A stretch of 64,000 nt of DNA. It comes from Nereocystis luetkeana. Taxonomy: Eukaryota > Sar > Phaeophyceae > Laminariales > Laminariaceae. Where the stretch lies: contig JARUPZ010000037.1 of NCBI GenBank assembly GCA_031213475.1, positions 1,240,001-1,304,000 of the forward strand. Direction: 5' to 3'. Shown here piece by piece: positions 4,931 through 61,685 of this stretch; the stretch's first letter is position 1; every line of letters starts with the position of its first letter. A program made the position numbers and the translations under genes. The notes under the pieces were generated by a model. It searched no databases. It was given only the letters and a program-made list of their open reading frames with translations, and was not told the origin of the DNA.

Positions 4931-5994
4931 ACCTACAGCAGATATTGTAGTTCATGCTTGCCTCGCGACAATATAAAATAGCAGCGTAGATGGCCATTCC
5001 AATATACACCAAAAATCTTTCTGTCTATCAGCAGTATATCCCTCATACTCTCTGTGAATATGTCTTAAATTCTTCTGTTCGTTGTTGTTGTTGTTCTCAC
5101 ACTATTATCTCATCTCCACAATACTATATGCAGTCCGTGGTCGCAGGATAGGCTCCTATAACTCTGGAGTGTGGAAGGAAATACCTCGGTAAAAATAAAA
5201 CAAGCAAAGCTTATACCTGGTATAGAATAGTACACATGATAACTGAAGCACATCTATACACCTCAGACAAAAATTCTACAGGGCGGTCCGCGCACGTACG
5301 TACCGTATCAAATACACGCGGTACGCTGTACGAGTTGCCACAGAACTTTCCTCACATATTTCTTCATCAATATGTTTATAGTAAGTATCAATAGGTACAG
5401 TCCTCATCACATCATTACATTGATTGTTACCAGGGCATACTTTAAATTCACAACTATACCGGAGAAGGATTAGGTAGAACATCATAATAAATAATAAATC
5501 CTGTGATGCCAATCATTTTATTTTGGCTTTAAATTTAACGAGTCCTCCCACGGTCCGCCTTTTTGACGGCAAACACACAAAATACCAGTATACAATTCCG
5601 TCGGATAAAACTAAAAATTGAAGGAGTCGCCCTCCCCTCCCGAACCGAGAGTCCTTTCTTTTTGTTGCTGCGTTGCCTCTCACATTCGTTCACGCATCAG
5701 AGTTATATTGAGCCGACTTTGATTTGACCTGCCCCCGGCTAGGCCGTTCCTTATGTCTCGACCTTTTGTGTTGCCGGTTTTTCCTTTACGATGTTGTAAG
5801 CACAGGGGGTGCAGGGTGGATCATTAAATTTATACGTTTATCACAGTGTAATCGCATCGTCGTTCGCAACAAGGTATGGGGTCTGACGTCACAGCAGTCT
5901 AACTGAGACGATCTCTCGTCACCCTCCCATTTAGTACGGTTGATCTCACATGAAAACACAATGCGCGGGGTTGACATAGGCATACATTACTACG
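4931..5994. other. No gene; short inverted echo at 5081-5144
   Basis: No supported gene. At 5081-5144 a GTTGTTGTTGTTCTCAC tract followed by CAGTCCGTGGTC is the reverse complement of the right end of the 3195-4451 segment, so a fragment of that family lies here in the opposite orientation. A TACCTGGTA scar motif is at 5214-5222. Confidence 0.4.
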
Positions 5995-6325
5995 TTTTTT
6001 TTTTTCTCATCCCATTCATTATCTTCGCACATCTTCTTCTCTCTCTGCTTCCAACTCGTAACTCAGATCCGGGGTCACATAGCAGGCTCTTCTCCCCACT
6101 TCCCGCTACGGTACGTGCCTTCATTTTTATCGCGAGAAGATTTCAGCCTTTTCTTCCCTCATCGACTCGCATCGAATTGTGCCTACCCACGCTGCAAGGC
6201 GCTCTCAACAATTGAATCCGTTTTTATTTTTGCAAATAAAGTCAAAAGTCCGACCCACCTGGGGCTCGAACCCAGGACTCAAACAAGTAGAATTCGAGGT
6301 TAACCACTTGAACCACCGGGGCGAC
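5995..6325 (-). mobile_element. tRNA-derived SINE, copy 2
   Basis: On the minus strand the A box (TGGTTCAAGTGG, from 6304-6315) and the B box (GGTTCGAGCCC, from 6262-6272) are intact and about 30 bp apart. The body matches copy 1 closely and ends in an 11-base A tail (T at 5995-6005). This is the cleanest promoter of the three copies. It is a repeat head and not a functional tRNA gene, because the sequence runs on into the shared body. Confidence 0.85.
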
Positions 6326-7400
6326 GTATAGGTGCCGTGAGTTGTTCCCCGCCCAAGATCATAACATTTACACGATTTTGGCCGATTGGCCTTTTTTATT
6401 TTTGCACTGGGGAGGAGGCGAAAGTTTTTGTTGAAGATAGTGGAGGAAGATTGATTGTATATTTTTTGTGTCCGTCTAAATAAATTAATGGTTTCTGAAT
6501 TAAGCTGTCGACCGTGTGTTCCACGAGACTATTATGGAAGATGAGAAATAGATCGTTTGGGCTACATGTCGCGCTCTGATTTCGGCGGTTGAGGTATTAT
6601 AATTAAAAGAAGTATATTATTATGTTCACGTTGAGGTATTCTAATTATAAGAAATTCAATATTATGTTCACGTCGTCAAGGACTACTAATTGTGTTTTTT
6701 TGCCGATGTAGATCGAGGTTTTCTCTTTGTTGGAGTTAGTATTGCTGGGGAGCGCTATGGGTTGCGTTTAGCAGATAAGGGAGTATCAAACTTTCGCTGG
6801 GGTTTCTTTCGCCTGATTGCTGCAGAGCATACGAGGTAGTCTATTTCTCCATTACCAGGTATTATTTATACTACCTGTTGTGGGCTGTACGGAACGAGAA
6901 AATGTATTAATACCTTCCCCACGAACGATTTATGAACTCTTCTCCATGGCGTTTTGGCTTTCTTTGATTTGGTTTGTCGAGGTTGATCGAGGTTTCCTAT
7001 TTGTTTGTCGTTGTTGCTAGAGAGTGCTGTGGGTTGGGTTTTGGGGGGCGAGAGAATCTCATATACACACGTGGTTTTTCTGTTTTGTTTTGCTTTAGTG
7101 CCGGAGAGCGTAGGCGAGGTACTTTTTATCCATCAATGATCACCTGCTGTGGGCTGTGCGGGAGGAGTAAATGCCATACTTTCCCCAAGGAACGTAAAAC
7201 ATAGATTATTTCTCCCTATTTCATTACTACCTGTCGTGGGCTGTACGGAAGGAGTAAATATCATACTTTCCCCACGAACGTGTACAACAGTCTAACGTAC
7301 GGTCAACCTCTGAGTGATCTTTGCTCGAAGGGTTGGTATAGTTTTTTTTCAATTCTCCTGCAAGGTGCCTTGACACTCAATCAAGTGCACCAGCGATAAA
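6326..7400 (+). repeat. Repeat G, degenerate internal duplications
   Basis: Three related blocks carry CCTGTTGTGGGCTGTACGG or a close variant, then a TTCCCC-ACGAACG stretch, near 6865, 7140 and 7225. Between them lies a GATCGAGGTTT..TTTG..GTTG stretch. The same material is found at 55650-55810 and, inverted, at 34735-34950 inside element H, so this is a diverged relative of H. No protein is recognised. A TACCAGGTA motif is at 6853-6861. Confidence 0.6.
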
Positions 7401-7407
7401 ACATTAG

Positions 7408-7516
7408 TATTACGGGGGACCATAGTTAATAGGACCTGTGGTATACATAAAAACCTATATATTTAACCATTTCTACTAACAATATTTGGTCCTATTAACT
7501 ATGGTCCCCCGTAATA
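7408..7516. mobile_element. 109-bp MITE-like hairpin, perfect 29-bp inverted ends
   Basis: The 29 bases at 7408-7436 (starting TATTACGGGGGACC) are exactly reverse-complementary to 7488-7516, around a 51-base AT-rich loop. AAACATTA occurs just outside on both sides (7399-7406 and 7524-7531) and may be a target duplication, but it is offset by 1 and 7 bases, so this is not certain. There is no coding capacity. Confidence 0.7.
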
Positions 7517-13152: not shown

Positions 13153-13154
13153 CA

Positions 13155-13690: not shown

Positions 13691-13739
13691 GCGGCACGCA
13701 AGAGGAGGTTGGCTGTCACATGGTGAACCCAGGCAGATG

Positions 13740-14010
13740 ACAGAGAGAGGGGAATTTGGAGCACAAGGTCATGAGCTCTGGTGGGGATACGAGAGATCGG
13801 TACCCAGGGAATTTGTTTGGCCCCGAGCACCTGGGCCCGAGGGTTCTCCCGGGCGGAACGAGGGCCCGAATAACTTGGCCCGAGAGCCTTCCTGGGCGGA
13901 ATAAGGCCCAAGTGTCGGGGCCCAAGTTTTTCCCCGGGTGGGATCAGTGTCTCTGCCCGAGCTTCTCCTTGATGGAATCTGATGGGTGACCACGTATCGA
14001 GCCACGAGCT
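13740..14010. repeat. GGCCC-rich degenerate minisatellite
   Basis: Recurring units of about 32 bp with TTGGCCC, GAG, CCGGGCGGAA or CCTGGGCGGAA, and AAGGCCC or AGGGCCC, strongest at 13800-13950. The minus strand reads as a repeating Leu-Gly-Pro peptide, which I take to be a by-product of the repeat. Confidence 0.6.
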
Positions 14011-15784
14011 CTGTCCGGGATGATGGAGTCGGATGGGTGCCAGCAGCGAGGGATATACGTAGAAAGTAAGATAGAGTACATATATTCGGGTAGCACTACT
14101 GCTGTTTATAGCAGTGACCATGCATAACGTATCAGGAAACAGTAGTCACGGCAGGTAGTCACCATCACAGACTCGCGATAAGGCAGCACCAGAAAAGGAA
14201 AAAAGGCCAGGAATCTCTCCGTCCTGACCTCGATTTGTTTTTCGTTCCTGCGCCCGCCTTGACGATTGTTTGCGGCCGGCCTTCGCCTCAGGTGTAACTC
14301 TCGTTTGTTTGCGGCCGTTCTTCGCCTCAGACGTGACTCTCGATTTGTTTTTGTTTTCGGCCCCGCATATCTCGTCTGTGTTTCTTTGTGCGGCCGGTAT
14401 TTTTCTTGCTGTGCGGTACTCGTCGAGCAAACAAATGGGGGGGGTCGGCTGTATTCATTTAGACTACCATGGCAATACGTATGTGTACGACTCTAATAAT
14501 CAGCCCAACCTGAGCGACAGCAGTATTTTCGTGGTCACATGTCACATGTAACTGCTGTTGTTGAAGTATACCTCGCTGCTGGTATCGAAACAGGGAGTAC
14601 TTTTGAATATCGTTGCGGGAGGAGCGCCTTCCGTAGATGGTTCTACGTTTGAAGTTGTACGTAGGAACCGATAACCTACTATGCCCCGAGCCCTGAGTAA
14701 TAGCTGCCTGGAGCAAAGGCGCCTCAACTTGAAAATTACACAGAAAAGCCGTATCCCCGTCTACAATACCATCAGTAGTCTATACACTACCAGGTATACA
14801 GTTTCACACGATGCTCAAAAAGATGAGAAGATGGTATATATTATACGACGACTTGCATTACCGTACGTACACAACTAAGAATATGAATATTAACGATGGT
14901 ACATGTAATGTGGAAAAAGGACAGGGAACCATACTGCTACTACTACTGCTGTACTCTGTACCTGCAGTTTTTTATTTTTTTCTTCCCCGAACAGGGTGAG
15001 CTCTTGATACACGGTTACGCCTACAAGGGGGGCTGGCTCGCAGTACATTTTCTTTTGACAACATTAATGAAGGCTATATAAAATATTACACACTCCCGTA
15101 AAACTGTACCAGGTAGGCCGTATGGCAAAATCCCTAGGGACCATTTCGTACATCTCTCTTCCCATCTTTTCAAGTCATGTTAACGCGTTGAAAAACGACA
15201 TATCAGGATGTACCACACACACCGTATGTACACGAGTACCAGATATCTGGTATTCATACGGGGCATACTACGTTGATGAAGCTGGGTAGAAATGACGATT
15301 TTAAGTCGAAGGCCACATATCATACGTGGAGGGTGTATCCACAGTACATACAGTATTCATACCACTATCAATATAACCGTTCATGGGACTGAAGGTCGCA
15401 CTGCAAAAGCTCTCTAGATCCTTGGGTCCATCGTTCCTCTTTCTTTCACAAGAGTGAAGACGTTTGACTTTGGCCCCACACGTACCTACACACGTACGGG
15501 ATGAGTGTCCCCTACTATCGGGGCAAAGTAATGTTGTTGGAAAGCCGTTCAGCTGTGCAGTGTAAGGCAGGTTACTATTCGGGGGTAGATGAAAGCTACG
15601 TTGAAACAACTGAGGGCACACAACGAGAGTCATAGCGGGTTGTTATGGTCTCCAAGTACCCGATACGTTGGAATTCTACTTCTTTCACCCGTTCGGGTCT
15701 TCTCACCCGGAACGTTGGCATTTCACTGGCTTTCCCCGGTCTTTTGACCCGGTACGTGCCATAGGAAACAACCTTACTCACTAG
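14010..15784 (+). repeat. Family D copy 1, main part
   Basis: It shares long blocks with D copy 2 (24000-25110) and, inverted, with 48480-50070. Shared landmarks are AACAAATGGGGGGGGTCGGC, ACTGTACCAGGTAGGCCGTA (15105), TCCCTAGGGAC and a pair of GGTACGT stretches near 15700. Near 14230-14400 there are three units with TTGTTTGCGGCC or a similar sequence. Scar motifs are at 14788-14796 and 15107-15115. Confidence 0.75.
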
Positions 15785-16900: not shown

Positions 16901-16916
16901 TACCAGGTACCAGGTA
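16901..16916. repeat. Double TACCAGGTA scar
   Basis: Two overlapping TACCAGGTA motifs sharing a TA. The paralogous left arm has only the single TA at this point (AACCTATCAACC on the reverse strand around 12586), so CCAGGTA was added twice here or lost twice there. This is one of three paired comparisons behind the excision-scar reading. Confidence 0.85.
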
Positions 16917-19215: not shown

Positions 19216-19782
19216 TGTAACAGATGTGGCATCAAAATAGGTTTAAAAAACAGTAATATCGGGTACCTGGTATGGAAACACACCTGAAAAATCCTTTCTC
19301 GTGGAAAGGTCCGGGCAACCTCGAAAAATATTCTTTGATTATTTCCCAATTAAAGACACATGTGAAGGTGTTACTTGCTGAACTATAAGGGTAAACAACC
19401 GATCGATTACGCAGTTCAGGGTGATCCTTAGAACGCTTCCTCGCCCTCTGAACGGCCGGATTTTTGAGGTGTCAGCACCGTATACGATTCTACGCTGACC
19501 TTGTTATTTAATACCAGAGGAACCCGGGAAATGTGCCTTTAAGGACCTCACACGCAAGCGCTTCTATAAAATAAACGTTCTAGATGAGAATCGGAACGCA
19601 ACCTAGGCGGTGGATCGCGTACTCGCGGTGCTCTGACGGATGGACTCCTCGTCGAAAACCCGGGAAGGTGGCCGGAGGAAGATAAAGAGGATGTGGACGG
19701 TGTAAGGTCTGAGCTTGAGTAAGGAAGAAAACGAAAATAGATAGAATCGGTACGTCTTGCCATGTACAGCAAGTGGGTGGCA
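19216..19782. other. No gene recognised
   Basis: Unassigned sequence with a TACCTGGTA motif at 19264-19272. No supported coding region. Confidence 0.4.
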
Positions 19783-22945: not shown

Positions 22946-22954
22946 TACCAGGTA
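22946..22954. repeat. TACCAGGTA scar with empty paralogues
   Basis: The sequence ACATACCAGGTAATATTTTA corresponds to GCATAACATTTTA on the reverse strand of D copy 3 (TA at 51054-51055). A bare TA is also seen in the related sequence at 16054-16055. The difference is exactly CCAGGTA. Confidence 0.8.
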
Positions 22955-24471: not shown

Positions 24472-24480
24472 TACCAGGTA
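24472..24480. repeat. TACCAGGTA scar shared with 15107, absent at 49230
   Basis: D copies 1 and 2 read ACTGTACCAGGTAGGCCGTA; D copy 3 reads ACTGTAGGCCGTA on the reverse strand (TA at 49230-49231). The difference is exactly CCAGGTA next to a TA. Confidence 0.85.
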
Positions 24481-27977: not shown

Positions 27978-27986
27978 GGACTACGT

Positions 27987-31009: not shown

Positions 31010-33340
31010 AAACTTCGAAATTGCTTCCAAGTATTGTATCGGTTGAGACATTGAGCTTCTAATGTGAGGGGCTCAGAAACGTCTGGTTGCACCCCTACTG
31101 TGGGATGGCTTACTAGCCAAGGTAAATTTCTGATTTCGAGTAAGTAAGTCGTTTGAAGGTACTGACGTTTACGCCACCCCCCAGCACGGCAGTGCCCACT
31201 GGTGAGACCTTTTCGTGCTAAAACAAAACATGAGTCCTCAAACGTCATTCATCCACAACCACTTCCGGACCGTATCCCTTGCATAACGGTGTTTGTGGAT
31301 GTAGTTGTAGAAAGGTGGTGACAAACACCCCCCCAGAACGGGAACGGCCTACCGCCTATTGTGATTTCAATCACACCTCTCGATTCGTTCCTTCAACACT
31401 GGGCCACCATACTTGGGGCGTCGAATAGCAGGGTATCCTGTTAGGTTGAGCAGATCATACCAAAGCTCGACACATTCCATCTCGGTCATGGGTCTCACAA
31501 ATGTGTACCTATGGGGGGTGTAGCGACTTGCACATGCACTCGCCCCTTTGGACATCTGGGTATTTGAACGTTACCATACCTGGTATAATCCTCATGTACG
31601 TCTTATGAAAGACTGACGAGTACAAGTATCTGTATATTAACTGAATCTGAATGAACAATCCCCAAAGCCTAGGTATTATCACGAAAACGTTTAGTAAAAC
31701 ACCATGGTCTGTATCAAACTGATATTGGGTTGAGGAGCCTGGTCGATCGTGATAGATGCTTAGCCGTGTTGAACTATACCCCTCTCGTAGCAGGGTTCTG
31801 TGTCTGGCTTGCCTCCCATTCAACTATCACTGTTGTTGTGCCATCGTTTTGATCAAAGTCATGGCCACCTGGATTACACTATGATGACAACATTTTTTTC
31901 CAAGATTAGTCATGCAATTTAGCATTTCTACAACCGTTCTTCTCCGACGAGGTGGACCACCCGATACTGGGATACGGACGACAAACACAGGGATGCGTGG
32001 TACGCTTAACAACTACACGCTTGCGTTCGCAAATTAACCCCTTTAGAACTCTATTCCCGTTTTGGGGGCTAACCATCCTAATTCCAAGTAGTTTGCCCCC
32101 AATTGTCCCCAAAAAGAGACTGCAGTCCTAAGAGGGTTAAGGGAACCTTTAGTTTGGACATCGGGCATATGTGGCCTTTATACCTGCCCTCCCATCGCGG
32201 GGACGAAACACCTGGAATTAGGGTCAAACTTAGGTACATGTACTGGCAGTGCAGTATTCAAACTGTCAAGATGCCCAGTCGTCGTTGGGAACCCAGTCAG
32301 GGGTAAGCTCGGTTGACTCCGTTGACCGCGCCAGCGACTAAGGCGGCGCGTGAGTATGTGTGCTGGGGAGTGGCTTTGTTTTTCTATCGGAAAATACCAA
32401 GTTTTCTCTCCTCAGTTTGATTGGCATTGTGTTCTGGTATCTCGTATCCACCGCGTAGGATGCATGTATTTGTTCAGGAATAGCAGTCACACTTGCTACA
32501 GGCAAAGCGTTCCGAATAGAAGCCAACAGTTCCGGGGTCTTTTCGGCACGATGTAACAAGCGCCTGTTTTCACGTCAAGGTTTGGTTTACTTTCCAGAGT
32601 TCTTCAGTAGCCCGCTCTATGGTCTATGCTGGGCGTATATGCCACGTTCACACTCTGTCCCAGTTCATGCCCAGACTGATCAATGTTACACGCAGCCTGC
32701 GACCCTTGTTGATGCGCCATTGTAAGCGCTGTCCTGAATACGTAGTGTATGATTCGCTATATTAGCACTCTTGTGTTCACACACACCGCAACTACGATGT
32801 ATTGTAGTTCTCCTTTATGTGTCCCTTTGTTTTTATTTGGGTTGTACATATAATAATAATAAAGCATGCATACGTTCATGGTGTCCTTTAGTTGCAATTA
32901 GTACGAGATGGTATCCCATATCGGGTATCTCCTTAGAGTACCGCGTCTCTATTACGTACTGGTACTGCACTATTTAGTTAGTACCTGGTACTTCTTTGGT
33001 TTCTCCAATCGAGATGCATTTTAGTTACAGCCTGTTTAGTAGCCGGAGTTCGGAATGAGTTATATTATTAGTGCGACAATAATGTCATACGAAATATCTG
33101 TACAGCAGTGTCTTCTTCATGCTCGACGTCCACCAACCATGGAGTGTTTCTTTGTACGCGTTTGCCGAATGTTCATACCTTATATTATTACTTTGTAGTT
33201 ACGTATGTGAGATATGGAGATTGATTCCCATCCCGTTTGTTCTCTTCGCCCTATTTTCTCTATCCCTCCTTCGTATACACATCCGGGGTCACAGAGCAGG
33301 CTCTTTAATCCCCTCCCAGCATGCGGTCTGTGCCTTGGGT
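31010..33340 (+). repeat. Family A copy 3
   Basis: It runs parallel to copy 4 (45225-47500): one 63-bp unit, GGTGAGACCTTTTCGTGCTA, GGTGGTGACAAACACCCCCC, GTTGAGCAGATCATACCAAA, then the CGGATACGGACGACAAA-like block and GAGATGCATTTTAGTTACAG. Compared with arms 1 and 2 it has only one copy of the 115-bp block and extra sequence at 31430-31860. Scar motifs are at 31577-31585 and 32982-32990. No protein is recognised. Confidence 0.85.
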
Positions 33341-33345: not shown

Positions 33346-35344
33346 TATATATCACGCTGTTGTAGGAATTACTCTAAATACATACATGCTTGATAATGCA
33401 GCAGAGTGGGGAGGGAGGAGAAGAGCCCCCTTTACGCGACCACCCCGGATTTAGTATACTCGGAGTATCAAGTATAATACCGAGAAATCGAACGCTTTCG
33501 AGCCGCGAGCAATGTCGGTACAACCCCCAAAACCCATCAAACCGACTGCTGCACAGGTGATATAGGGCGAGTTTTGACGTCGTGCAAAGCTTTTTTGGAT
33601 CATCGTGATTCTTACTGATATTAAAGTAGCAGTGGGGCTCGAACAGGGGGCCAACAACAGCATCATACGATGGCGAACCAACAGAAAAAGGAGCAGCAGC
33701 AGCAGCAGCGTCAAGCCGAGTGGTGAAAATCGACGGGGATCAAACGAAGCCGGCACGAGCAAACGTGAACCGACGGAGGATGAAAAACCAACCACGCATA
33801 CGCGTCACACATCCGCTCCTGCTAGGAGAGCCAACGTCTTTCGCACCGTGTAGGATGTTTGTGTAGTCTCACTACATTTGCTGCAGGCAGGCTTCTCCCT
33901 CTTGCGGCTGCTGTATGCAGTTGAGTTGTGTTTGCTCGGGGCAACGTCTTCGCGCCGAAACTCATCATCATCATCGCCACGGACCACCAACAAGGCGGTG
34001 AAGGGAGCGTCACTTCTCATCCTCTCTATACCGGAGGTGAAGTCGGTTTGGTTAAATAATCAAAACTGCGACGGGTTTCCGAACCATAACCTGTAACAGC
34101 AAAATACGATCTCGACCAACAACGAGGAGGGATAACCAGATACCTGGTACCTTCTCGTGTCAAGCTGCATGATTGTTTGAGTACAGCAGCGTGCTGCGGT
34201 AGAAGGAGATAGGGAGGATGATTTGGAAATTAGGTGTTGTTGCAGAGCTTATAGAGGAAGGTACTGCTTTGTTGTCTGCAGTAGTAGTCCACAGCGCGGC
34301 CTATGTAGTGTACAAAATACGACAGAGAGGATTGCATGAACCCCTCGGGAGCTCGCAATATTTCTATTTCGATGGACTTCGGGTGAAGCGGCGGTAGATG
34401 ACTAGGACCGGATGTTCAAACGCACAGGAGGGCAGGAACACATGCGTGTTTCGAAGATGACGTCGCAAAGGACAAGATCTTGGAGCGTTGCACGAAGGCA
34501 GCTTGCAAAAGGTGATTTCGGAGTATGTGAGAGATATATTTTTTCACGTTGTTGCACGAAGGGAGCTTTTACAAAAGGGGATTTTGAAGCACGTGATGTA
34601 TTTTCGAAACAAGTTGGTATCAGAGGCAATACTATAATAAAGTTGAAAAATGGGCATCAGGCTGGCTATATATAATCAATAGATATGACTTTTCAGTGGC
34701 TGTCCCCTAAAACCCAACCGACAACGCTCTTCAGCTATAACGACAACAAAGAGAAACCCTCGATCAACATCGACAACCAAAATCGAAGAAGACGAAAACC
34801 GTTCAAGGGGAGGGCATGAGATTTTCTCGCCCCGTGCAACCCACGACAGATAATGCAGACTAAGCTCCTCTCTGCGTCAATAAAGCTAAAGAAAACAAAA
34901 AAAAGGTACCAGGTATGATTTTCCACAGAGCTCTTCAGCAATACTGACAAAAAGAGAAACTATCGATCAAAACGCAGCAAGCGGCAGTACTTTCGTCGGA
35001 AAGGAAACCCCGAGAGCCGAAGCCCCAGAAAAATAAGCGGGCGCAGTCTGGCAGGTTACAACAGAACAGTCGTCTCATCCAATCTGATGAATACTTGAGC
35101 ATCGAACGAAGCAAAGCCCTCACCTCTTAAAGGTATGTGATAAATGTCAGACAGAGCACCAACACACCAAAAGAAAAAAATACACTACGAAACACACAAA
35201 GTATGCTAGTTCTTCTGTTGTGCATGGTTTGCCCCCAAAACGGGACTTCAGTAGCAACAAAAAAAGGGTTACATTCTCCGCCCAAAAAAGAATACATAGA
35301 CAGAAAAGGAGATCATCAAAGAAATAACACACCACCAGTTAACT

Positions 35345-39180: not shown

Positions 39181-41059
39181 GATGAGCAGAGCTGCCTGCG
39201 GTTGTGCCCTACATGGGAAGACTACTGGAAGTGGAGACATTGGGAGCTGTTTTTGCTTGTGGGCGAGTGGGAGGACGTGATGGTGTATCCGGAGGATGGA
39301 AGCACGTCAGAAACAGCTCATACTAGGCGGCGTTGGGTGAATGGGCTGCGCAAGTTGGCGATGAGTGGGCGTTTGACCGCGACCTGTCCAAGTGCCCGCT
39401 GCAGTATGGCGAGTGCATTTGCAGCCAACGTGGCTGTGTCGACAACTTGTACCACATACATGAAAAAGGTGTCGAAGGACGAGCAGGGTTCCCTCAACAA
39501 GATGGCGACTGGGCAGCCTTCACCCATGGGACGCTACCCATCCACCAAGTCTCAGATGTGTCGAGCAACATCTGGTTTTTCACCGTCAAGTGCCGCTTCG
39601 CTGCTCGAGTACCAGTATAACTTCCTATCTTCATCAGTTGTCGTCGTCCATCCCTGTTTGGCTTGATTATAATGTGTTAGTTGCGTGGCCCGTTTTGCGA
39701 GCAGGACAGCACCTGGTGCATGTTGGCTGTGTTGTGGGGGTTCAAACTCGTACTGAGTACGTGCATGCTTTTACATGTTCCAATCTCCGTGCAGGTTATT
39801 GGCCTCCTCGATAACGTGGCCATGGAGGGACGAGTGCTTGATTCTTGTGGAGCCACAGGCGATGCGGTTGCCACCGTCATGACTGCGCACGGCTTCCATG
39901 TTTCCGTGAACGACCTAAATTCCAGGTGTGTTGTTTGATTTTGTGCGCGATAGGTCATCTGTTAGGTGTGGATATACGTAGGCCCGAGCCGGCTATCGCA
40001 ATTAATACACATGTACATGTACGAGTGTGTACCTGTACTGCTGTGTACTGCTGTGTACTGCTGTATCGGCTGTATCGGGCGACTGTGCTACGCAGCTGCC
40101 GTGTTTGTAATGCAGGTGTTCTGCTGTGCTGTGTGTTGCTGTCCGTAGTTTACATCTTCGAACAGCAACAAAATCTTATACTAACTCCAAGTAGTTTGTC
40201 CCTAGAAAGCTGTGTGCTCAAGGAGCTCAACATTATATATGAATTCCAAGTAATTTCCCAGATAAAGGTGGGTACAGTTTAGAAGGAGTTTAGAACTTCA
40301 TACTAACCCAAAAGGAGTTTGTCCACCTGAAACGTGTTTGTACCAGACGTCCATGCTACGCAGCTTCTGCACACTTGTTCTCCTGTGGCTCAAAACTTGT
40401 GCTGGTACAGAGCAAAGCACGGGCAAAACAAAATTGCATCGCAACACGATCAGACACTACCAATAATACCATACCTGGTATTTAGAATCGTCAAGCCGTC
40501 AATTAAATCGAAACTAAGATCAAGTAAATCCCTCCAGAAAAAAAAGGTGCAGGCAGTGATCTCCGAGGTCAAAACCCTTCACTAATTCCAAGACATTTCA
40601 GCAAAAAACGCGGCTGTAGTGTCGTAGGGGTCAAGTCTAATGTGTAAAAATGTGTTGTTCGCTGTTGTTCGCTGTTGTTCGCTGTGTGCATCCCTCAGTT
40701 TGAAGGCTGACTTTCTCTTGGACGCTGCGTCGGACGGCTTCGGAGACGTGTTCATGGAGGAGTCGATACGCCCCGACTGAGTCGTGACTTCGCCGCCATA
40801 TAAGAACGTACTTGCTTTTTTGAAGCAGGCCTTGCGTGTTGCATATTTTGGGGTAGCATTCAAGATCAAGCCTAGTTTTCTTGAGCCCACACAGTCTCGG
40901 GGCACCCGGTTGAATGCAAACCCTCCCCACGCTCTCGTGGTGCTTCCACGTGCTAAGTGTCGTGGTAGGGTGTGTAGCGCGACGGAAGCGTGGTTTGTTT
41001 GGTGTTGTGTACCGGACGGATGTGTGCCTCGTGCGCAGGCTATTTCTATTGTGATGTAG
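39181..41059 (+). pseudogene. N6-adenine-type DNA methyltransferase, intron-containing, broken
   Basis: Pieces join into one enzyme-like protein. Frame 1 (39181-39340) reads WEDYWKWRHWELFLLVGEWE. Frame 3 (39333-39548) reads CPLQYGECICSQRGC, VDNLYHIHEKG and DGDWAAFTHGTLPIHQ. A phase-0 intron is inferred at 39549-39794 (gt..gcag). Exon 39795-39925 reads VLDSCGATGDAV and VSVNDLN, the SAM-binding motif I and following acidic loop. A second intron is inferred at 39926-40698 (gtgtgt..cctcag). The next exon reads ADFLLDAASD, then VVTSPPYKN, the catalytic motif IV, then GVAFKI, SFLEPT and EAWFVW. Such enzymes transfer a methyl group from SAM to adenine N6 in DNA. Defects: the frame change near 39330-39360 and a TGA at 40778-40780 just before VVTSPPYKN. 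RNA targets are an alternative. Confidence 0.7.
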
Positions 41060-45400: not shown

Positions 45401-48340
45401 GTTTACGCCACCCCCCCAGCACGAACAGTGTCCACTGATGTGACATTTTCGTGCTAAAACAACACATGAGTCCTCAAACGTCATTCATCCACAACCACTT
45501 CCAGATCGTACCCCTTGCATGACGGTTTTCGTGGAAGTAGTTGTAGAAAGGTGGTGACAAACACCCCCCAGAACGGAAACTGCCTACCGCCTATGGCATT
45601 ACAATCATACCTCTAGATTCGTTCCTTCAACACTGGGCCACCATACTTCGGAGCGTCGAATAGCAGGGTGTCCTGTTAGGTTGAGCAGATCATACCAAAG
45701 CTTGTCACGTTCCATCTCGGTCATGGGTCTCACAAATGTGTACCTGTGGGTGGTGTAGCGACTTGCACATGCACTCGCCCCTTTGGACATCTGGGCATTT
45801 AAACGTTATCATACCTGGTATAATCCTCATGCACGTCTTATGAGACGTACAAGTATCTGTATAATAACTAGATCTGAATGAACAATCCCCAAAGCCTATA
45901 TATTATCACGAAAACGTTTAGCGAAACCGTATGGTCGATATCCTACTGATATTGGGTTCAGGAGCCTGGTCGATCGTGATAGATGCTTAGCCGAGTTGAA
46001 CTATACCCCTCTCGTAGCAGGGTTCTGTGTCTGGCTTGCCTCCCATTCAACTGTCACTGTTATTGTGCCATCGTTGCGGTCAAAGTTATGGTCACCTGGA
46101 TTACACTATGATGGCCACATTTGTTTCCAACATTAGTCATGCAATTCAGCATTTCTACAACCGTTCTTCTCCGATCAGGGGGATCACCCGATACTCGGAT
46201 ACGGACGACAAAAGAGTGATGCGTGGTACGCTCAACAACTACACGCTCGTGTTCGCAAACTAATAAAACCTTTGGTTTGGACATTGGGCATATGTGGCCT
46301 TTATACTTGCCCTCCCATTGCGGGGACGAAACACTTAGGTACATGTACAGCAGTGCAGTACTCCAACGATTAAGATGCCCAGTCGTCATTGGGGAACCGT
46401 GTCAGATACTTCAACAGAGTCAAGCTCGGTTGACTCTCCGTTCACCGCGTCAGCGACTAAGGCGGCGCATGCGTATGCGTGCTGGGGAGGGGCTTTGTTT
46501 TTCTATCGGAAAATACCAGGTTTTGTCTCCTCAATTCGATTGGCATTGTGTATTTTGTATCCTCCGCTTCGGATGAATGTATTTGTTCTGGAAGAGCAGT
46601 CACACTTGCTACAGGCAAATCGTTCCGGATAGAAGAAGCTCACGCTCCGGGGTCATTTCGGCACGATGTAACAATCGCCTGTTTTCACGCCAAGGTTTGG
46701 TTTACTTTCCAGAGTCCTACAGTAGCCCGCGCTGTTCTCTATGCTGAGTGTATATGCCACGCTCGAAACTCTGCCCCAGTTCATGCCCAGACTGACCAAT
46801 GTACCACGCAGCCTGTGGCCCGTGTTGGTGAGCCATTGTGACGACGGCTGTCCTGAATACGTAGTGTATGATTCGCTATTTCAGCACTATCGTGTTTATC
46901 AACACCGCAAGTGCAATCTAGCGCTGTAGATATATTTTCTTCGTCCCTTTGTTTTAGCTTCGGGCGTACATATAATAGTACAGCATGGATACGTTCGTGG
47001 TGCCATTTAGTTGCAATTGATACGGGATGGTATCCCATATCGGGTATCTCGTTAGTACCGTGTCTCTTACGTATTGGTACTGTACTGTTTCGTACCAGTA
47101 CTTGTTTGTTTTCTCCTACCGAGATGCATTTTAGTTACAGCCTGTTTCGTAGCCGGAGTTTAATGTGTCTATTAAGAGTGTGAGAACATCATTATACCCC
47201 ACACTCACAGAACCCAGTCTTGACATAATGCTTACATACAGCAGTATGGGGCCTAAATGACGCGAGTTAGTTACAGCAGTGTCTTCTTCGAACCAACCCG
47301 ATCATGAAACCGCTTGACGTCCACCAACCATGCCATGTTTCTTCGTACGCGTTTGTCGATTGTTCATATTTGAGATTATTACTTCGTAGTTATGTATGTA
47401 CGATACAGACATATTTTTTATTTCCATCCCATTTGTTCTCTTCGCCCTTTTTTCTCTATCCTTCTTACGTATATACATCCGGGGTCACAAAGCAGGCTCT
47501 TTGATCCCCTTCCAGCATGCGGTCTGTGCCTTGGATTTATATTGCGAGAAGAGTTCAGTCCTTCGTTGCACCTATATACTCTCGTTAGGCGGTCTCAAAA
47601 AATTGATTTGATTCCTTACATTTTGTTGTATATATTGCGGAAATCACCGCCTCACCCATCGTGAGATTCGAGCTCCAACTTTAACGCTGAAAACAGAGGC
47701 GATACACAAGACCACAGGGGGGCTTTTGATGAAAGGAATAGGAACCAATGCTAACCATGATCAAAACCAACGAAACCATCTCTGAGACCCTATTAGATCT
47801 GATATTTGAGTTTGTGTGCTGTTGACATTATTCCATGGAAACGACTGCAGGTAAGAATGCTTTTAACCGAATCTTCGGCCATAGACTGGTGAGGACTGCA
47901 GTATCGTAGCTCATACTTCCGCAGCGTACGAGTACGAGGGGATTACAAGTATACGGCGTATATCTGCTAATAGTAAACTGGGGCTGTGTGATGTGATACC
48001 AGCTCGGTATGCTGAAGATACTATATTTTACCGTAGTATGTGAATGATGAAGAGAATACATACTTTCCCGAAGTCGGGATGAATAAGGTAATGCGACCGA
48101 CCGTGTGTGTACTGCTTGTACTCTTTACGAGTCTTGTTTGTGTGTTCTTCACCTTAAACCGTTCTTGCTACCGGTCGACATCCAGCACAACCAGTGTCCG
48201 TGCTGATTCTTTAATCCTAAAGACACAGACTTGCTGTGGTCACAAACTACGCCACGGATATGCTACAAACCAGTACACTGTTACGTACAGCAGTACATGT
48301 ACCAGGTATGTATGCAGTACGCACAGCAGTAGTATTGAGA
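45401..48340 (+). repeat. Family A copy 4
   Basis: Direct counterpart of 31165-33340, then extended to 48340 with the block seen at 12640-12900 in copy 1 (GCTCGGTATGCTGAAGATAC, GTCGGGATGAATAA, TCGACATCCAGCACAACCAG). It therefore bridges the two halves of the family. Scar motifs are at 45812-45820 and 48300-48308. At 47085 it reads TACCAGTA where copy 3 has TACCTGGTA. No protein is recognised. Confidence 0.85.
47410..47720 (-). mobile_element. SINE-like element, second subfamily, inside family A copy 4
   Basis: The body shares ATCCGGGGTCACAAAGCAGG and GCGAGAAGA with the SINE copies at the left of the window. On the minus strand a weak B box (AGCTCGAATCTC, around 47670) is preceded by a possible A box about 40 bp upstream. 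There is no clear A tail. It is diverged, with different middle sequence, so it is a separate subfamily or an older relative. Confidence 0.5.
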
Positions 48341-48479: not shown

Positions 48480-51204
48480 CCGGGTCAGAAGACCATACGG
48501 GGGAAAACCAGTGAAATGCCCACGTACGGAGTGAGAATACCATAAAAACAGGTAAAACAAGTGATATTCCTACGTATCGGGGAGTATTTCAAGAAGACCA
48601 TAACACCAACTATTCCATGTGATGACACACAATATTTGTCGTGTAAAGTTCTCAGTTTCAAGGTAGCTTTCATAGAGTGATTTCACCCCAATAATAACCG
48701 GCCTTGCTAGGCACAGCTGAACGGCTTCACAGCAGTACTTCATGCCAGGACACTACGAGTAGCGGTGTGATACGTTGCTGAGGTAATAAGGGGCACTAAT
48801 ACCGTACATGTGTAGGGACAAAGGTAAAGGTATCCACTAGGAATGGTAGGCCCAAGGATACAGAGAGATCTTGCCGTACGTACCATGAACAGTTAGTTCT
48901 ATTGGAAGTACTGATATTGATATTAATAGTGTGAATATATGCATCCTTCACCTATGTTGTCTTCAACTTCCTTTCTCTGTTCTACCCAGCTTCATCAGTA
49001 TACCCCGTATGAATACCATATACATATATGTGGTGTGTGGTATATCCTGATATGTGTTTTTTCATGACTCGTTACAGCAGTAAAACCTTTTAGAACCGCA
49101 GTCCCGGTTTGGGGACAAACCAGTCAAATAATAAGTAATTTGTCCTTAAACCGGGACTGCAGTCCTAAAGCGATTAAGAAAGAGACAGACCCAAGGGTCC
49201 CTCGGGATTTTTTGTCTTACCATACGGCCTACAGTTTTACAGTATTATAGATACCAAATATACGTCCTCCGTTCATGCTGTAAAAAGCATACATATTGCG
49301 ACCCACCCCCCCTGTATTCATATTTGTGTACGTATCAATAAATCGACCCTGTTCGGGGAATAAATAAACAAAACTTCCAGGGTACAGCAGCAGCAGAATA
49401 TGAGTCCCTGTCTTTTTTCCAAATTACACCTTGGACTATCATTGATATTATTAATAGTCGTGTATGCTAATGCCGGTCCTCAGGGTCATTCTTATCGGAG
49501 AGTACAATCTTTTCATATTTTTGAGAATCGTGTGAGTATATATAAATTACTGATAGCATTATTTATAGAGACGAAGATACGCCTTTTCTGTGTGATTTCC
49601 GAGTTGAGGCGCCTTCGCTACAGGCAGCTAAGTGTTTGGGGCGCGGTACGTTATCCGCAACTACGTACAGCTTCAAACTTAGTACCCTCTACGGGAGGCA
49701 CTCATCCCGCGACGAGGTTAAAAAGTACTCCATACTGTTTCGATACCAGCCGCGAGATATTCTCCAACAACAGCAGTTACATGTGACCTGTGACAACGAA
49801 AGTACTGACTTTCGATCAGGTTGGGCTGACTGATAGAGTCGTACACCTATTGCCATGCATGTAAGTCTAAATGAATACCTGGTACCTTGGTACAGCAGAA
49901 CCATCACGATTTACTACTCAGATTCCATGCCTTTCCAAACACCACGGGCAGCTCGTCACTGGCATGCGCGAATTTTCAAGCGCTGTGTGACTTGAATTTT
50001 AAGTCAATCAGGGTGACAAAGCCTACCCCCCCCATTTGTTTCGCTCGAGGAATACCGTACAGCAAGAAAAATATCAGTAATTTCCACTGTGGATATGACT
50101 TTAGAACAAAGAGACGAATCAATCCCACGGTTGTGTTTCACCCGCTCCATACCTGTTGGTCTGGTACTGATCATGATGGGCTGCATCGTGTATCTGCCAA
50201 CACCCCGAACCCTTCGGACACAGCGAGCCACACCTCCCTCTGTTGTGTGCAAGCTCATCATCGCCCAGCTGAAACTATCTTACCCCGTGTGACCCGTGCC
50301 CCACAAGGCCTTGCGTAGCCGATCTTCACCTGCTCCGATTTCCCTTCTGCTTTCCTCTGATTTTCGGCGTTCAGTCCTTCAAAGGTCGTACCTGGTACTC
50401 GAGCACAACGCTCGATTGGTATGCAACACGGACAGTGGTGCGTGCGACCGGAGACATCGAAGAGGGTCAAACGTGCATCGGACTTTCCATTTGGTGTGCA
50501 TACGCTCATTTCGTCGTGTCGTAGTCTTACTATTAATAGTGGCACACATATGTACGACTAATGATGTAGTTGAAGCATCGCGGCAAGAAGGCTCGTTAGT
50601 CACCAAAATTTACGTGATTTTCTTGAAAGTGTTGTCGAGGGAGGGGTTCATCGTTCTAGGTTATCTACGCCCAAACGGCGTAGCGCTCAACATTGTTAGT
50701 TTCCGTTATCACCTGACCGAGCAACGATGCACGAGAGCATGCGTGTATTAGTACGTACGGCACCTTTGGCTTGTATCGACACCTGTCGGTTGCATTTGGT
50801 GTTGAAGACATTATGTGGTCAATAGCATGCAGTCATTTATTCACGAGCAACAGGGGCAAAAGGAGCACGAGCAACGAATATGCCTGCATGCATTAACCAG
50901 ACAAGTATCTTCAAAGCCTCACGAAACAGACAGGCAGAGCACCATCGGCAGCGTGAATACATAACAGCATATTGCACGAATCACTATCATACAAGGCAGG
51001 CAGCAACAAAAACATTGTGCATGTATGAATATACCGAGTATCCCATAAAATGTTATGCAAGATAGGACATGGGATTGATTATACAAAGAACACGATCACA
51101 TCACATCACAGCAGTTTTGCAAACATTCCCATCGCCTGCACACGTTTTGCGAACACTCCGATCATCTGCAATGCACTGCGATCGGCCTGGGTTCATCATG
51201 TTAC
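48480..51204 (-). repeat. Family D copy 3 (inverted)
   Basis: Reverse complement of element D at 22806-25110, but with blocks missing and added: it contains a GGTTTGGGGACAAACCAG to TTAAACCGGGACTGCAGTCC stretch (49100-49165) not seen in copy 2. Its right edge joins T4 exactly as the left end of D copy 2 joins its inverted T. Its left edge lacks T and reads as at 15770 (CCGGGTCAGAAGACC, reverse). It has an empty TA site at 49230-49231 and scar motifs at 49876-49884 and 50389-50397. Confidence 0.8.
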
Positions 51205-54929: not shown

Positions 54930-57120
54930 CTCAATAATCTCCAGACTATTATCCCCTGATTTCTACTTAGTTTTTTCAATAGTTTCTTCATCCCATTATT
55001 ATTGATGTTCGCCCTTACTTTTTGCTCCCTTCTGCGATGCGTCGTATATGACCTATAGATCCGCGGTCGCGCATAGACCAAGCTCTTCTCCCCCCCCCTA
55101 CCCCACTACTATTGTCGATAATTTTAAAAAAGAACACTGTCTGGTGTGCATTACTATTGCCTGCAGTGCAGCAGCAAAGATACACTATAACTGGGGGTGT
55201 GTTATTTCTTTGATGCCTTTTCTGTCTGTGTATTCTGTTTTGGACGGAGAATGTAACCCTGTTTCTAGTATTACTGCAGTCCCGTTTTGGGGGCAAACCA
55301 TGCACAATAGAAGAACTAGCAAACTTTGTGTGTTTCGTAGTGTATTTTTTTCTTTTGGTGTGTTGGTGCTCTGTCTGACATTTATCACATACGTTTAAGA
55401 GGTGAGGGCTTTGCTTCGTTCGATGCTCAAGTATTCATCCGATTGGATAAGACGACTGTTCTGTTGTAACCTGCCAGACTACGCCCGCTTATTTTTCTGG
55501 GGCTTTAGCTGTCGGTGTTTCCTTTCCAACGAAAGTACTGCTGCTTGCTGCGTTTTGATCGATAGGTTATCTTTTTGTCACTATTGCTGAAGAGCTCTTT
55601 GGAAAATCATACCAGTACCTTTTTAGTTTTCTTTAGCTTTATTGACGCAGAGAGTAGATTAGCCTGCATTATCTGTCGTGGGTTGCACGGGACGAGAAAA
55701 TCTCATACCTTCCCCTTGAACGGCTTTCGCCTTCTTCGATTTTGGTTGTCGATGTTGATGGAGGGTTTCTCTTTGTTGTCGTTATAGCTGAAGAGCGTTC
55801 TTGGTTGGGTTTTCGGGGACAGACACTGAAAAATCATATATATCTATTAATTATATATAGCCAGCCTGATGCCCATGTTTCAACTTTATCATAGTATCGC
55901 CTCCCTATTACCAACTTGTTTCAAAAATATATACCTCACGTACTCAAAACTGTTTTGAGTCCTCCATGCACCAACGTAAAAAAATGTATCTCACATACTC
56001 CGAAATCACCTTTTGCCTACTGCATTCGTTCAACGTTCCAAGATTTTGTCCTTTGCGACGTCATCTTCGAAAAATGCATGTGTTCCTGCCCTCCTGCGCT
56101 TTGAGCATTCGGTCCTTGTCATCTACCGCCGCTTCACCCGAAGTCCATCGAACTAAAAGTATTGCGAGCTACAGAGGGGTTCACGCAATCCTCTCTGTCG
56201 TCTTTTGTACACTAAATACGCCGCGCTGTGGATTACAGTAGTACCTTCCTCTATAAGCTCTGCAACAACACCCAATTTCCAAATCATCCTCCTCATCTCT
56301 TTCTACCGCAGCACACTGCTGTACTCAATCGTGCAGCTTGACACGAGAAGGTACCAGGTATCTGTTTGTCCCGCCGCGTTGTTGGTCGAGATTGTAATTT
56401 ACCGTTGCAGGCTACGGTTCAAAAACCGGCCGCAATTTTTATTATTTAACCAACCGACACCTCCCGTATAGAGAGGATGAGGAGCGACGCTCGCTACACC
56501 GCGTTGTTGGTGGCCCGTGGCGATGATATTGACGAGTTTCGGCACGAAGACCTTGCCCAGAGCAAAGACAACTCAACTGCGTACAGCAGCGGAAAAGGAA
56601 GAAGCCTGCCTGCAGCGACAGTGGTGAGACAACGAGACAACACAAACCGCCTACACGGTGCGAAAGACGTTGGCTGTCCTAGCAGGAGCGGATGTATGAC
56701 GCGTATGCGCGGTTGGTTTATCATCCTCCATCGGTTCACGTGTGCTCGTGCCGGCTTTGTTTGATCCTCGTCGAGTTTTACGACTCTTGACGCTGCTGCA
56801 GCTCCTCTTCCTCCTGTTGTTTCGCCATCGTATGATGCTGTTGTTGGCCCCCTGCTCGAGCTCCACTACTACTTTAATATCAGTAAGAATCACGATGATC
56901 CAAAACAGCTTTTCACGACAACACTCGCCCTATATCACCTGTGCAGCAGCCGATTCGATGGTTTTTTGGGGGCTGTACCGACATTGCTCGTGGCTCGAAA
57001 GCGTTCGATTTCTCGGTATTTTACTCGATGCTCCGGGTGCACTAAATCCAGGGTGGTCGCGTAGAGGGGGCTCTTTTTCTCCCTCCCCACTCTGCTGTAT
57101 TAGCAAGCATGTATCTATTC
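54930..57120 (-). mobile_element. Element H copy 2, inverted and shortened
   Basis: Reverse complement of 33371-35575. It ends (57035-57120) in the terminal sequence of element H (CACTAAATCCAGGGTGGTCG, CCTCCCCACTCTGCTG). It lacks the part of H that carries the 276-residue ORF. It has a scar motif at 56352-56360, shared with 34141-34149. At 55611 it reads TACCAGTA where copy 1 has TACCTGGTA at 34907-34915. Confidence 0.85.
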
Positions 57121-58480: not shown

Positions 58481-58980
58481 ACTTGTTTCGGCGTGTTTAG
58501 CAACAACAGAAACATCAAGGCAAGCAACCTGTGCCAGCAACAGCAGTAGTAGCAGCTATACCGCGATCGTGTGTAGTAGCAGTAGCGGCAGCAACACCAG
58601 GAGCAGCAGAATGACAAGCAAACTCCGTGACATGGGCACATTGTACAAAAGGCAGTGAACACTCCGCTACTACTTACTTTTACACGCAACGCTATACGTG
58701 GTATGAAGATCAGACAAATGAATGATGAATCGCACCGAGATACTAAAACAAACTGACAGATATTTATGTACGTGGTGGATTAAGCGTGTTCTCATGTCTT
58801 GTGGCCATGCGGTCCACGAACACTCAATAGCAGCAGCAGCAGCACAACACTCAGCAACACTCGAGCAAAAACACCCGATTCAAAAAGCACTCGTACGCCT
58901 GTTGTTGCTGTTGTTGTTATACCAGGTACATACTGCTGCGTATTGCTCGAGCAGCACTCGAGCGCACGAGAAATTGTCAT
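58481..58980. other. No gene; CAG/GTT-rich patches
   Basis: Short CAGCAGCAG and GTTGTTGTTG patches near 58540-58620, 58830 and 58905. A TACCAGGTA motif is at 58920-58928. No supported gene. Confidence 0.4.
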
Positions 58981-59600
58981 ACTTCAAGAACTCCGAGTAT
59001 TAGAGTACTGTTGGCCTAAATACTCGGAGTACTTGCAGTATGAGCAGTACTGAAGGGCCAAAACCTCCGAGTACTGGGAATATGAGCAGTAATTATACTC
59101 GAGTACAAGCAGTCCCCGGAGTACAAACATCTAAATTACTCGAAGTATTCCGAGTATCGCGAGTATTGAACCCAGGAATACTTCATCATCCGAGTGAAAT
59201 ACTCCGAGTAATACTCCAACCCGGAGTACCTTGGAGTATAAAACCCTGAAATACTCCGACTATTACTCGTACCTCGGAATATGAAACCCTGAAATACTCC
59301 GAGTATTAAAGTTTTTGCAGTATGAAATGCCCAAGCACTCCGAGAATTTAAAGTAGGAGCAGTACAAGATCCCCAAATACTTCAAGTACAACGAGTATTC
59401 CAGAGTATTGAACCCCAAATACTCGGAGTACAGCAGTATTTCAGAGTATCGAACCCCAAAATACTCCGAGTACAAGCGGTATTGAGAGTAATCATGCCCG
59501 AAATACTCCGAGTACGAGCAGTATCCCGGAGTATCGAGCCCTGAAATACTCCGAGTACACGAAGTACCAGAAGTAATTTACCTCCGATACTCGTTACTTT
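58981..59600. repeat. Array of small palindromes, core TACTCCGAGTA or TACTCGGAGTA
   Basis: About ten degenerate units with a 55- to 60-bp step. Each contains a palindromic core such as AATACTCCGAGTA, a GAGCAGTA or AAGCAGTA phrase, a CGGAGTAT or AGAGTATC phrase and a GAACCCC or AAACCCT spacer. The cores vary in many positions but usually keep their symmetry. Confidence 0.85.
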
Positions 59601-61092
59601 GCTCCAAGGCGCTCGGAACATCTATCTGTACCTTCCCATATTGATATCTTACGAGCATCGTCTATCCTTTGCTCAGGACGACCCAATCCGGCACACTCTT
59701 CTGTCGATGACCACCAAAATTACAGTCGTTCTTCGTGCATTTACATTTCGCGTTACCACTGCTGCTGCCGTCTCCATCATCCTCGAGTTTGTGATGAAGT
59801 AAGTTCGACATCGTTTTCATTTCATTATCCTACCAGCACGGCCGCCTGATCTCTGCTCTGACACCTCGATTTAGCACACCTCATCCTCTCGATTAAAGTG
59901 ACAATATTGACGACCGTTCATTCGGATACTTCGGCGTTCGATCCTGCGGGCACTCCTTGCACCCGTGGCATTTGGATATTTAGTGCTACTCACACTCGCA
60001 CTTACTCGCAACATTCAGGCAGTATTTTGAGGTTTGAAGTTGAGTACTGCTCACACTCCCAATCACTCGCAATGTTGAGGCCGGAAGCACCCTAACTAAT
60101 AGTTTCAGCATTCAGAGTACGAAATTTGCTCGATACGGAAACAATCGATACTCCGAGTGTGGTCCCTCTGCTGTGCGTTTATCTTATTACTTGCAGATTA
60201 TATTGCATGGTGCTGCTGCAACCAACAACAAATAAAGTTTCAGTGTGAAATTCCAACGAGGGAGCAAGCACATCAAATAAATATTGCACAATTCATAATT
60301 TTAACGCCTATTGAGGTCCCCTACATGAAGTGACTTACAAAGTGGTTTTCATTAATGTGAAGCACGGGGCCACAATAAATGTCCAACCTATGTACGTATT
60401 GGCTCACCTATCATAGCTCCTATTTTATCTACAGGAATCTGGCCCGACCGCCGTGGGGGCGGGAGGGCCTTTTATTCCCTAGTATATACCTGGTATATAT
60501 ACATATTATATATATATTATATATATATCCGGACTGCTAAAGCAGATGCTTTCATTTTAGGGATCGAAATATCCATATCTGAAGCTCGAAATCGAACAAC
60601 ATATTAATAGGAAACAAACAGCCTTACAGTTAAAGAGATCGCCCGGGGCCCTGGCGAGGGGTGGAATCTGGACACAAGGTGGCTTGGATAGCGGGGTGCG
60701 GGTATGAGCCTGAACGCGCAGGGCATCCAAGCAGCTGGGACTTGGTGCAAGCCACGTGTGTATCTCAGCTTTCGATATCCGTCCCGCTATGGGTTCAATC
60801 GTTTGGGACAAGAGGGCCGTGATCATATATGAGTCATGCCTGGGATGAGCGAGGCGACAAAAATACAGCAAAACGTCGGGGCACAGTAGGGAAGGGCCAT
60901 ACACGAGAACTTTAGGGGCGGACCGCCTGGTTTCTGAAATGAACGACCGTGTTTGCTCAATTTGTGATTTTCCTCCAGGTCCATGGGCAACGGGAGTCTC
61001 TGGAGGTGAGGCTGATGGGAAAGAGTATAATGCCTACCCTCAAATACTGCAGTACCATGGTACGCCTCGGACGACCAAGCCCAGCTCGAGGC
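59601..61092. other. No gene recognised; small duplications
   Basis: At 59985-60090 there is a 75-bp tandem pair keyed by TACT(C/G)(A/C)TCACAC and ACTCGCAA. At 60480-60535 there is a TATATA tract with a TACCTGGTA motif. No supported coding region; 59600-59802 is open in one frame and ends in a GTAAGT-like donor, but I recognise nothing in it. Confidence 0.4.
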
Positions 61093-61685
61093 CAGCATAT
61101 ACTGTAGCTGTACTACTCGAAAAAGTCAACCACCCTGGTCGACGCGAGGTAAGAGATGTGAATTATTACCGAGAAGAAAAGGAAAGACAAACAGAGTGAC
61201 TGCTGTGGGCAATGTTTCCCAGCAATAATAAGGACGCAACATCCGTTATACCAAGATACATATCTCTATAGGAAACCCGGAGATGTCCCCCGGATGTCCC
61301 CTGACAACCACAGATTTCAGTAGACAGACAGACACCAAGACATACCGTCAAATCAACAATAGACACCCCAGCTGACACTGGGGAACGTTTAGGAGACGCA
61401 CCGCCCGCCGACCGCGCGACTGACTCCATAGCTTTGATGCTCGAATAATTTCATCCGGGCCCATGGGCAACCAGAGACTCGGGAGGTGATGATGACAGGA
61501 AAAAAGCTTGAGTCGTGCGTGGTGTGAGATTCCAGGGAACAGACAAACAGCAAGAAGTAGCAGATGTACCGGTACCCAACAATAGACGCGCCAGTTGACA
61601 CTGGGGAATTGCCGTGTGCAAGAGTCTTGGGGTGAATGTATGTCCTGGTTTGCTGACTCCATAAAAAGTACCAGGTACCAGCTAT
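61093..61685 (+). repeat. Repeat I copy 2 and an internal duplication
   Basis: 61093-61315 is a direct repeat of 54716-54929. A longer unit is duplicated locally: CCATGGGCAAC, GGAGGTGA, CAGACA, AACAATAGAC and GACACTGGGGAA occur near 60983-61385 and again near 61461-61607. A scar motif is at 61669-61677. Confidence 0.7.

Follow-up and report, generated by a model that had tools for sequence, protein, structure and literature searches.

Why does one palindromic nine-base word, TACCWGGTA, recur 22 times in 64 kb of DNA from the brown alga Nereocystis luetkeana? The stretch analysed here, called the window, is contig JARUPZ010000037.1, positions 1,240,001 to 1,304,000 (G000:C37:1240001-1304000), of an assembly of 465,085,209 bases in 1,987 contigs. 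Most probably, TACCWGGTA is the excision footprint, or scar, that a cut-and-paste transposon leaves at its TA target, which it duplicates on insertion. We infer rather than observe the excision, since the searches made did not find the element itself.

All 22 positions given by a first-pass annotation of the window were exact, 12 being TACCAGGTA and 10 TACCTGGTA. Its claim of over-representation held in the genome-wide count that it had proposed, which gave 182,395 copies against 1,744 for the control, the same letters read backwards. This is a ~105-fold excess and a density of one copy per 2.55 kb. Among the 9-mers of the window TACCWGGTA is joint fourth, and the four 9-mers at or above it are simple repeats of poly-A, AT and CAG types. 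In a 308-kb sample, of which the window is part, both strands together hold 234 copies, where a second-order Markov model predicts 5.9; this sample and a 282-kb one used below include six 3-kb loci fetched for holding the motif, two of which overlap by ~1.2 kb. The window is typical, because 23 loci chosen blind to the motif (223,500 bases, window left out) hold 84 copies, a similar density of one per 2,661 bases. Shared ancestry is not the explanation either, because 101 of the 104 scars or scar arrays in the 282-kb sample keep distinct flanks after look-alike flanks are removed. This agrees with the annotation's remark that the copies lie in unrelated repeats and unique sequence, yet three pairs within the window do share a scar. 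TACCWGGTA dominates over the other footprint classes described below.

How the word arises can be read from paralogues. For every scar in the sample, the site and up to 150 bases of flank per side were aligned to the rest of the sample at a cut-off of 75% identity. Among 28 site-spanning alignments the paralogue was exactly 7 bp shorter in 15, exactly 14 bp shorter in one, of equal length in six and otherwise different in six, while a net 7-bp gap occurred in 2.7% of random control windows of the same alignments. These 28 lack independence, since a single ~115-bp repeat family, in which a scarred copy (L026:7056) meets unscarred ones, supplies 11 of the 15, and two pairs enter the count twice, once from each side. 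Counted per distinct scar, the 13 divide into five with a bare-TA paralogue of the expected length, five whose paralogues all have equal length and three whose paralogues all differ otherwise. The equal-length cases are mostly duplicates with a common scar, namely TACCTGGTA at 31577..31585 with TACCTGGTA at 45812..45820, and TACCTGGTA at 34141..34149 with TACCAGGTA at 56352..56360 in an inverted paralogue. Alignments below the cut-off, which include that of 15107 and some with ragged gaps, were left out of the count.

The three comparisons on which the annotation had based its proposal of a 7-bp unit inserted at TA could all be reproduced. The tandem double scar TACCAGGTACCAGGTA at 16901..16916 is cleanly absent from its paralogue at 12586 (94.6% identity), which has a bare TA and is exactly 14 bp shorter. 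The scar TACCAGGTA at 22946..22954, compared there with 51054, faces two paralogues, 51212-50905 and 15978-16202, each 7 bp shorter. At 24472..24480 (TACCAGGTA) the paralogue 49367-49178 is 7 bp shorter, and the scar TACCAGGTA at 15107..15115 faces a bare TA in a paralogue near 49230, at 68% identity; these two scars lie within aligned flanks as the same scar and are probably of common descent. The pairs 15107/24472, 31577/45812 and 34141/56352 are best counted as one event each, because the scar is common to the aligned flanks. Insertion of the unit many independent times stands: TACCWGGTA is a derived 7-bp insertion at a bare TA. The change from a bare TA to TA-CCWGG-TA is the insertion at TA with TA duplication that characterizes Tc1/mariner elements.

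A palindrome that is abundant and contains CCWGG might instead be a protein-binding or methylation site conserved by selection or mutation bias. The obvious parallel is HIP1 of cyanobacteria, a short palindrome likewise iterated in huge numbers according to PMC4390886. Unlike HIP1, the word here has presence/absence alleles made by a 7-bp insertion: where a regulatory palindrome would be ancestral and altered by point mutation only, we see the whole unit missing in paralogues, doublets with a period of 7 and mostly unrelated flanks. The motif also decays. In the 282-kb sample, scars with a single mismatch at the eight fixed positions number 119 against ~58 expected, beside 110 intact ones (hand sums), which suggests ~7% change per site on average. 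With change on this scale, the scars are better regarded as fossils of mixed age than as a constrained motif, and we consider a conserved site extremely improbable. Set against this divergence, ~0.4 scars per kb corresponds, as a rough inference, to one fixed scar per few hundred substitutions. In the nested long inverted repeats at 9500-19000 (12551 pairs with 16951, and 11472 with 18030) the double scar differs between the arms, and a foldback palindrome at L041:100-540 carries on both arms the same double scar, decayed at one end.

Around 101 deduplicated scars the flanking bases are symmetric: the first position outward is a pyrimidine in 168 of 202 flanks (83%), the sixth is T in 108 of 202 (53%) and the seventh is A or T in 162 of 202 (80%), with composition near background past the eighth. 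When 12,015 TA sites were ranked by a score trained on half of the scars in the motif-blind loci, 60% of the 40 scars held out fell within the highest 10%. Judged from these letters, the target preference is like that of a TA-specific transposase or integrase. Existing scars are evidently targets too. Head-to-tail doublets with a period of 7 number 15,917 genome-wide against 2 in the control, a pattern we read as the TAs of a scar being targeted again, so that a second scar comes to lie beside the first. Among the matches listed, 59 plus-strand doublets have the central bases AA (23), TT (17), AT (14) and TA (5) by hand count, two triple arrays being counted twice; because 19 of the 59 are mixed, simple duplication is not the source of all doublets. 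The symmetry bears on the proposal that the 7 bp are inserted directly, by templated repair or slippage, and that an element never existed. Only the 7 bp were seen, as that proposal expects, but a palindromic preference reaching 7 bp to each side, together with the two-ended mismatch pattern described below, points to two identical ends handled by a dimeric integrase, and we give direct insertion very little credence.

If TACCWGGTA is an excision footprint, its letters would report the ends of the element. We propose that both ends begin with CCAGG just inside the duplicated TA, and that the transposase makes a staggered cut, most likely of 5 nt, leaving CCAGG overhangs on the flanks. Annealed, these overhangs would pair C:G, C:G, G:C and G:C around a central A:A mismatch, whose repair to A or T would give TA-CC(A/T)GG-TA. 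The ambiguity at the centre of the motif fits the annotation's suggestion of such a mismatch. Its Tc1/mariner-type ends stand in part: the TA duplication, and CC and GG halves contributed by two putative ends, are retained, whereas ends of just CCA do not suffice for TACCAGGGTA, TACCCTGGTA and TACCCGGGTA, which need CCAGG. The end should thus be corrected from CCA to CCAGG, probably with a 5-nt stagger. Sealing by simple end joining would leave one scar per move and add no copy of the element. Because end-joined moves add no copies, a few long-active elements could leave scars by the ten thousand and stay rare.

The evidence for CCAGG comes from minority footprints. Overhangs annealed with a slip of one base would carry two mismatches (A:G and G:A) and yield a 6-nt filling, CC[A/C][G/T]GG; a two-base slip would yield the 7-nt CC[A/C][G/C][G/T]GG. 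The 6-nt prediction was formed on 100 listed matches to the class TACCNNGGTA and then applied to other samples. Among those 100, the central pairs are AG 18, CT 16, CG 14 and AT 13, or 61 together, against 39 others, the largest of which are GA and TC with 8 each; eight of the AG cases belong to a single repeat cluster, and clustering affects several CG cases too. At G000:C1:1304145-1308362, TACCAGGGTA forms a tandem array of seven copies at 528-bp spacing, with one more 1,040 bp before. Genome-wide, TACCNNGGTA occurs 28,845 times and the predicted TACC[AC][GT]GGTA 18,845 times, a share of 65% where an even distribution would give 25%, so that a predicted filling averages ~4,711 copies and any other 833; the reversed controls number 4,918 and 1,198, respectively. 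Two sets, counted on both strands, show the same bias. A 248-kb set without the window, which shares at least C1:1002989 with the 100 listed matches, has predicted fillings in 22 of 32 cases, and a 290-kb set of 24 sources picked without regard to the motif, window included, has 24 predicted against 2.8 expected and 14 others against 7.6. In the 7-nt class TACCNNNGGTA, the slip model would expect the share of TACC[AC][GC][GT]GGTA to be well over 12.5%; it occurs 8 times against 1.5 expected in the 290-kb set (others 6 against 8.9) and 8 times against 1.4 in the 248-kb set (4 sites, p 0.005; others 6 against 7.9). Predicted 4-nt fillings in the 248-kb set (TA, CA/TG and CG) are 3.2- to 5.8-fold enriched, but so, at 3.7-fold, is a filling that the model does not predict.

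Mutation of older scars does not by itself account for these fillings, and their polarity points to ends of CCAGG, not CCTGG, because slippage in a G-run would yield TACCTGGGTA as often as TACCAGGGTA. Instead, TACCAGGGTA/TACCCTGGTA outnumber TACCTGGGTA/TACCCAGGTA by 34 to 4 among the 100 listed matches (8 of the 34 in one repeat cluster) and by 16 to 2 in the 248-kb set. They also bear on excision of an element with CCA ends and a 3-nt overhang, in which CC and GG come from the two sides and are joined across a single A:A overlap or after trimming of one base. Overhangs of this kind, 3 nt at the 3' end, are what Sleeping Beauty and mariner leave (PMC7827188), and the untrimmed join TACCATGGTA is enriched (6 against 0.6 expected in the 308-kb sample). 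Yet a lone A:A overlap offers no base pairing, and CCA ends predict only TACCATGGTA at 6 nt, whereas TACCAGGGTA, TACCCTGGTA and TACCCGGGTA are about as common among the 100 listed matches. Because a 3-nt CCA overhang predicts TACCATGGTA alone, CCAGG ends and an overhang longer than 3 are needed, and we hold CCA ends to be unlikely. A 4-nt CCAG overhang cannot give the 7-nt fillings AGG and CCG, seen twice and once; the stagger, whether 3' or 5', is probably 5 nt rather than 4, a choice based on these three sites. The palindromic CCWGG and the off-register set thus fit two predicted CCAGG ends.

The annotation had placed the element outside the window, and none was seen there; the search it had suggested, for a TA-flanked element with CCA ends and for its transposase, yielded no CCAGG-ended element in the sampled DNA and no linked transposase. 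Neither TACC...GGTA inverted repeats in the sample, of which the best matches lie inside the long inverted repeats of the window, nor TA-flanked short inverted repeats revealed the element. In the scar-dense stretch L041, an inverted repeat of 20 perfectly matched bases begins at two scars; it was rejected as a candidate, being part of the foldback and continuing past the scars. Among the best 80 of 102 candidate insertion polymorphisms between paralogues, judged by eye, there was no CCAGG element; the finds were a TA-flanked miniature inverted-repeat transposable element (MITE) whose ends read TTACGG and a second, probable one flanked by TTAA. Of nine stretches around doublets in viral contigs, eight hold the doublet only and the other (L031) one further scar in 2.3 kb. 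A Pfam scan of 101 sampled open reading frames (455 passed the length and complexity filter) detected no transposase domain, and genome searches with PF01359 and PF13358 (DDE_3) gave no matches at E 0.001, with 0 of 14 and 3 of 14 controls detected, respectively.

With PF03184 (DDE_1), the genome gave 46 matches at E ≤1, and many of them lie within long open frames. Ten have nearly equal score and span, in open frames of 437-515 aa, and are possibly a recently active family. Of the 46, one locus was read, which is among these ten (L046-L048, G000:C10:3951301-3956100). In its protein DDE_3 scores 47 bits and a winged helix stays under its curated cut-off, and the frame in L047 looks by eye like an upstream exon. 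A putative right end in L048 is TA-flanked and starts with TTACGGAGGCTCATAATTAGTAGGACC (TTACGG), not CCAGG; the left end was not found at this locus. The right end (L048:158-184) matches the ends of a MITE of ~105 bp at up to 23 of 27 bases. This MITE is common, has the ends TTACGGGGGACCATAGTTAAYAGGACC between TAs and has a copy in the window at 7410-7514; the matching end at G000:C10 lies 3' of the Tc1/IS630-type transposase frame. The genome probably hosts TA-inserting Tc1/IS630-type elements. The G000:C10 transposase resembles the expected scar maker in its genome, TA-flanked end and DDE_3 domain and differs in its putative end, and it is probably the partner of this other MITE rather than the scar maker.

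Several observations weigh against the excision reading. No intact or dead CCAGG-ended element was found in the sampled DNA, and no scar-linked transposase or filled site in the DNA examined. The DDE_3 genome search, empty at E 0.001, missed a DDE_3 protein later read in the same genome, and for that reason is not proof of absence. In the 290-kb set TACCAGG and TACCTGG occur without a following TA 57 and 58 times, against 37 expected for each, a mild excess that decayed scars could explain, and no 8-base continuation of either occurs more than three times. Because such copies are few and have no recurring continuation, CCAGG-ended elements must be far rarer than scars in these 290 kb. Among the fillings, the non-predicted TACCGAGGTA/TACCTCGGTA account for 16 of the 100 listed 6-nt matches, and the non-predicted 4-nt TC/GA (TACGAGTA/TACTCGTA) are 3.7-fold enriched in the 248-kb set; both may have been left by another element or belong to satellite sequence. 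Several of the listed TACCCGGGTA places are clustered and may be repeat letters. Lastly, doublets have equal central bases more often than expected (40 of 59) and AT more often than TA (p 0.006), which lies outside the model.

The scarcity of elements would also follow if a domesticated transposase eliminated TA-bounded elements efficiently and in a programmed way, if the gaps were sealed imprecisely so that CCWGG stayed behind, and if the assembly represented DNA after elimination. A single dominant footprint, the TA target and scars far outnumbering elements in the sample speak for it. On the other side, no germline copy was seen, and the scars must be inherited because they have decayed and are common to segmental duplicates (31577/45812, 34141/56352), and we regard it as distinctly improbable. 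It is conceivable, and no more than a tentative proposal, that a transposase with a 5-nt stagger, together with near-faithful end joining, moved a very low-copy element, or that programmed elimination acted, for so long that scars came to outnumber elements by orders of magnitude. A splice-site or introner origin of the motif was considered and dropped.

Excision footprints of related form are familiar. That of Sleeping Beauty is TAC(A/T)GTA, its central A/T coming from an A:A mismatch, and Minos, of the Tc1 family, has a 4-nt overhang of other letters and a footprint of TA, four bases and TA; staggers longer than 3 nt exist. We know of no genome with ~182,000 such footprints. Sleeping Beauty shares with the system proposed here the TA target, the TA duplication and, as described in PMC7827188 and PMC8151067, a footprint made of the overhangs left on the flanks, in its case 3 nt. 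It differs in that its overhang is CAG where CCAGG is predicted here. Tc1/mariner footprints are usually 2-4 bp, according to PMC7913693, and the main footprint here, 5 bp between the TAs, falls outside this usual range, which is not a strict definition. Because of this quantitative departure we claim only that the scars would work like Tc1/mariner-type excision, at an unusual scale and with a longer stagger. A limited search of the open-access literature, by title and start of abstract, gave no description of the motif or of a comparable genome-wide load, and the word 'footprint' is absent from the main text of a paper on Ectocarpus transposons (PMC12477816). If the 5-nt-stagger reading is true, excision, not insertion, is a main source of short insertions in this genome. 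Footprints are normally studied singly in assays; ~182,000 natural ones would document, across the genome of one eukaryote, how targets are chosen, in which register ends are joined and how mismatches are resolved. The scars are a possible dating and phylogenetic marker, though of 7 bp and prone to homoplasy, and a strong lead to a very active TA transposase. Coding sequence would be exposed to +7 frameshifts, which makes the load on genes testable.

The remaining scars of the window, all recorded without strand like those above, include three whose paralogues differ in other ways. At 32982..32990 (TACCTGGTA) and 34907..34915 (TACCAGGTA) the paralogue has TACCAGTA and TACTGGTA, respectively, each 1 base shorter with a second gap close by, and at 50389..50397 (TACCTGGTA) the paralogue in 23845-23533 has TACCTGGTT, of equal length with one base different. 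The others are exact matches: TACCTGGTA at 5214..5222, 19264..19272, 40472..40480, 49876..49884 and 60487..60495, and TACCAGGTA at 6853..6861, 14788..14796, 48300..48308, 58920..58928 and 61669..61677. A possible off-register footprint of the 6-nt class, TACCATGGTA, lies at 61053..61062. At 32034-32140, comparison with paralogues at 17582 and 46263 reveals a ~106-bp insertion with TTAA-like ends and the inverted termini CCCTCTTAGGAC/CTAAAGGGG, a probable TTAA-type MITE. Consecutive open frames at 26874-30218 resemble, by eye, a retroelement whose 3' frame is recombinase-like; they had no Pfam match. Minus-strand frames with HEAT repeats (GCN1-type) lie on either side of the right edge of the window, at 63128-64000 and L029:1-4536, with no scar inside.

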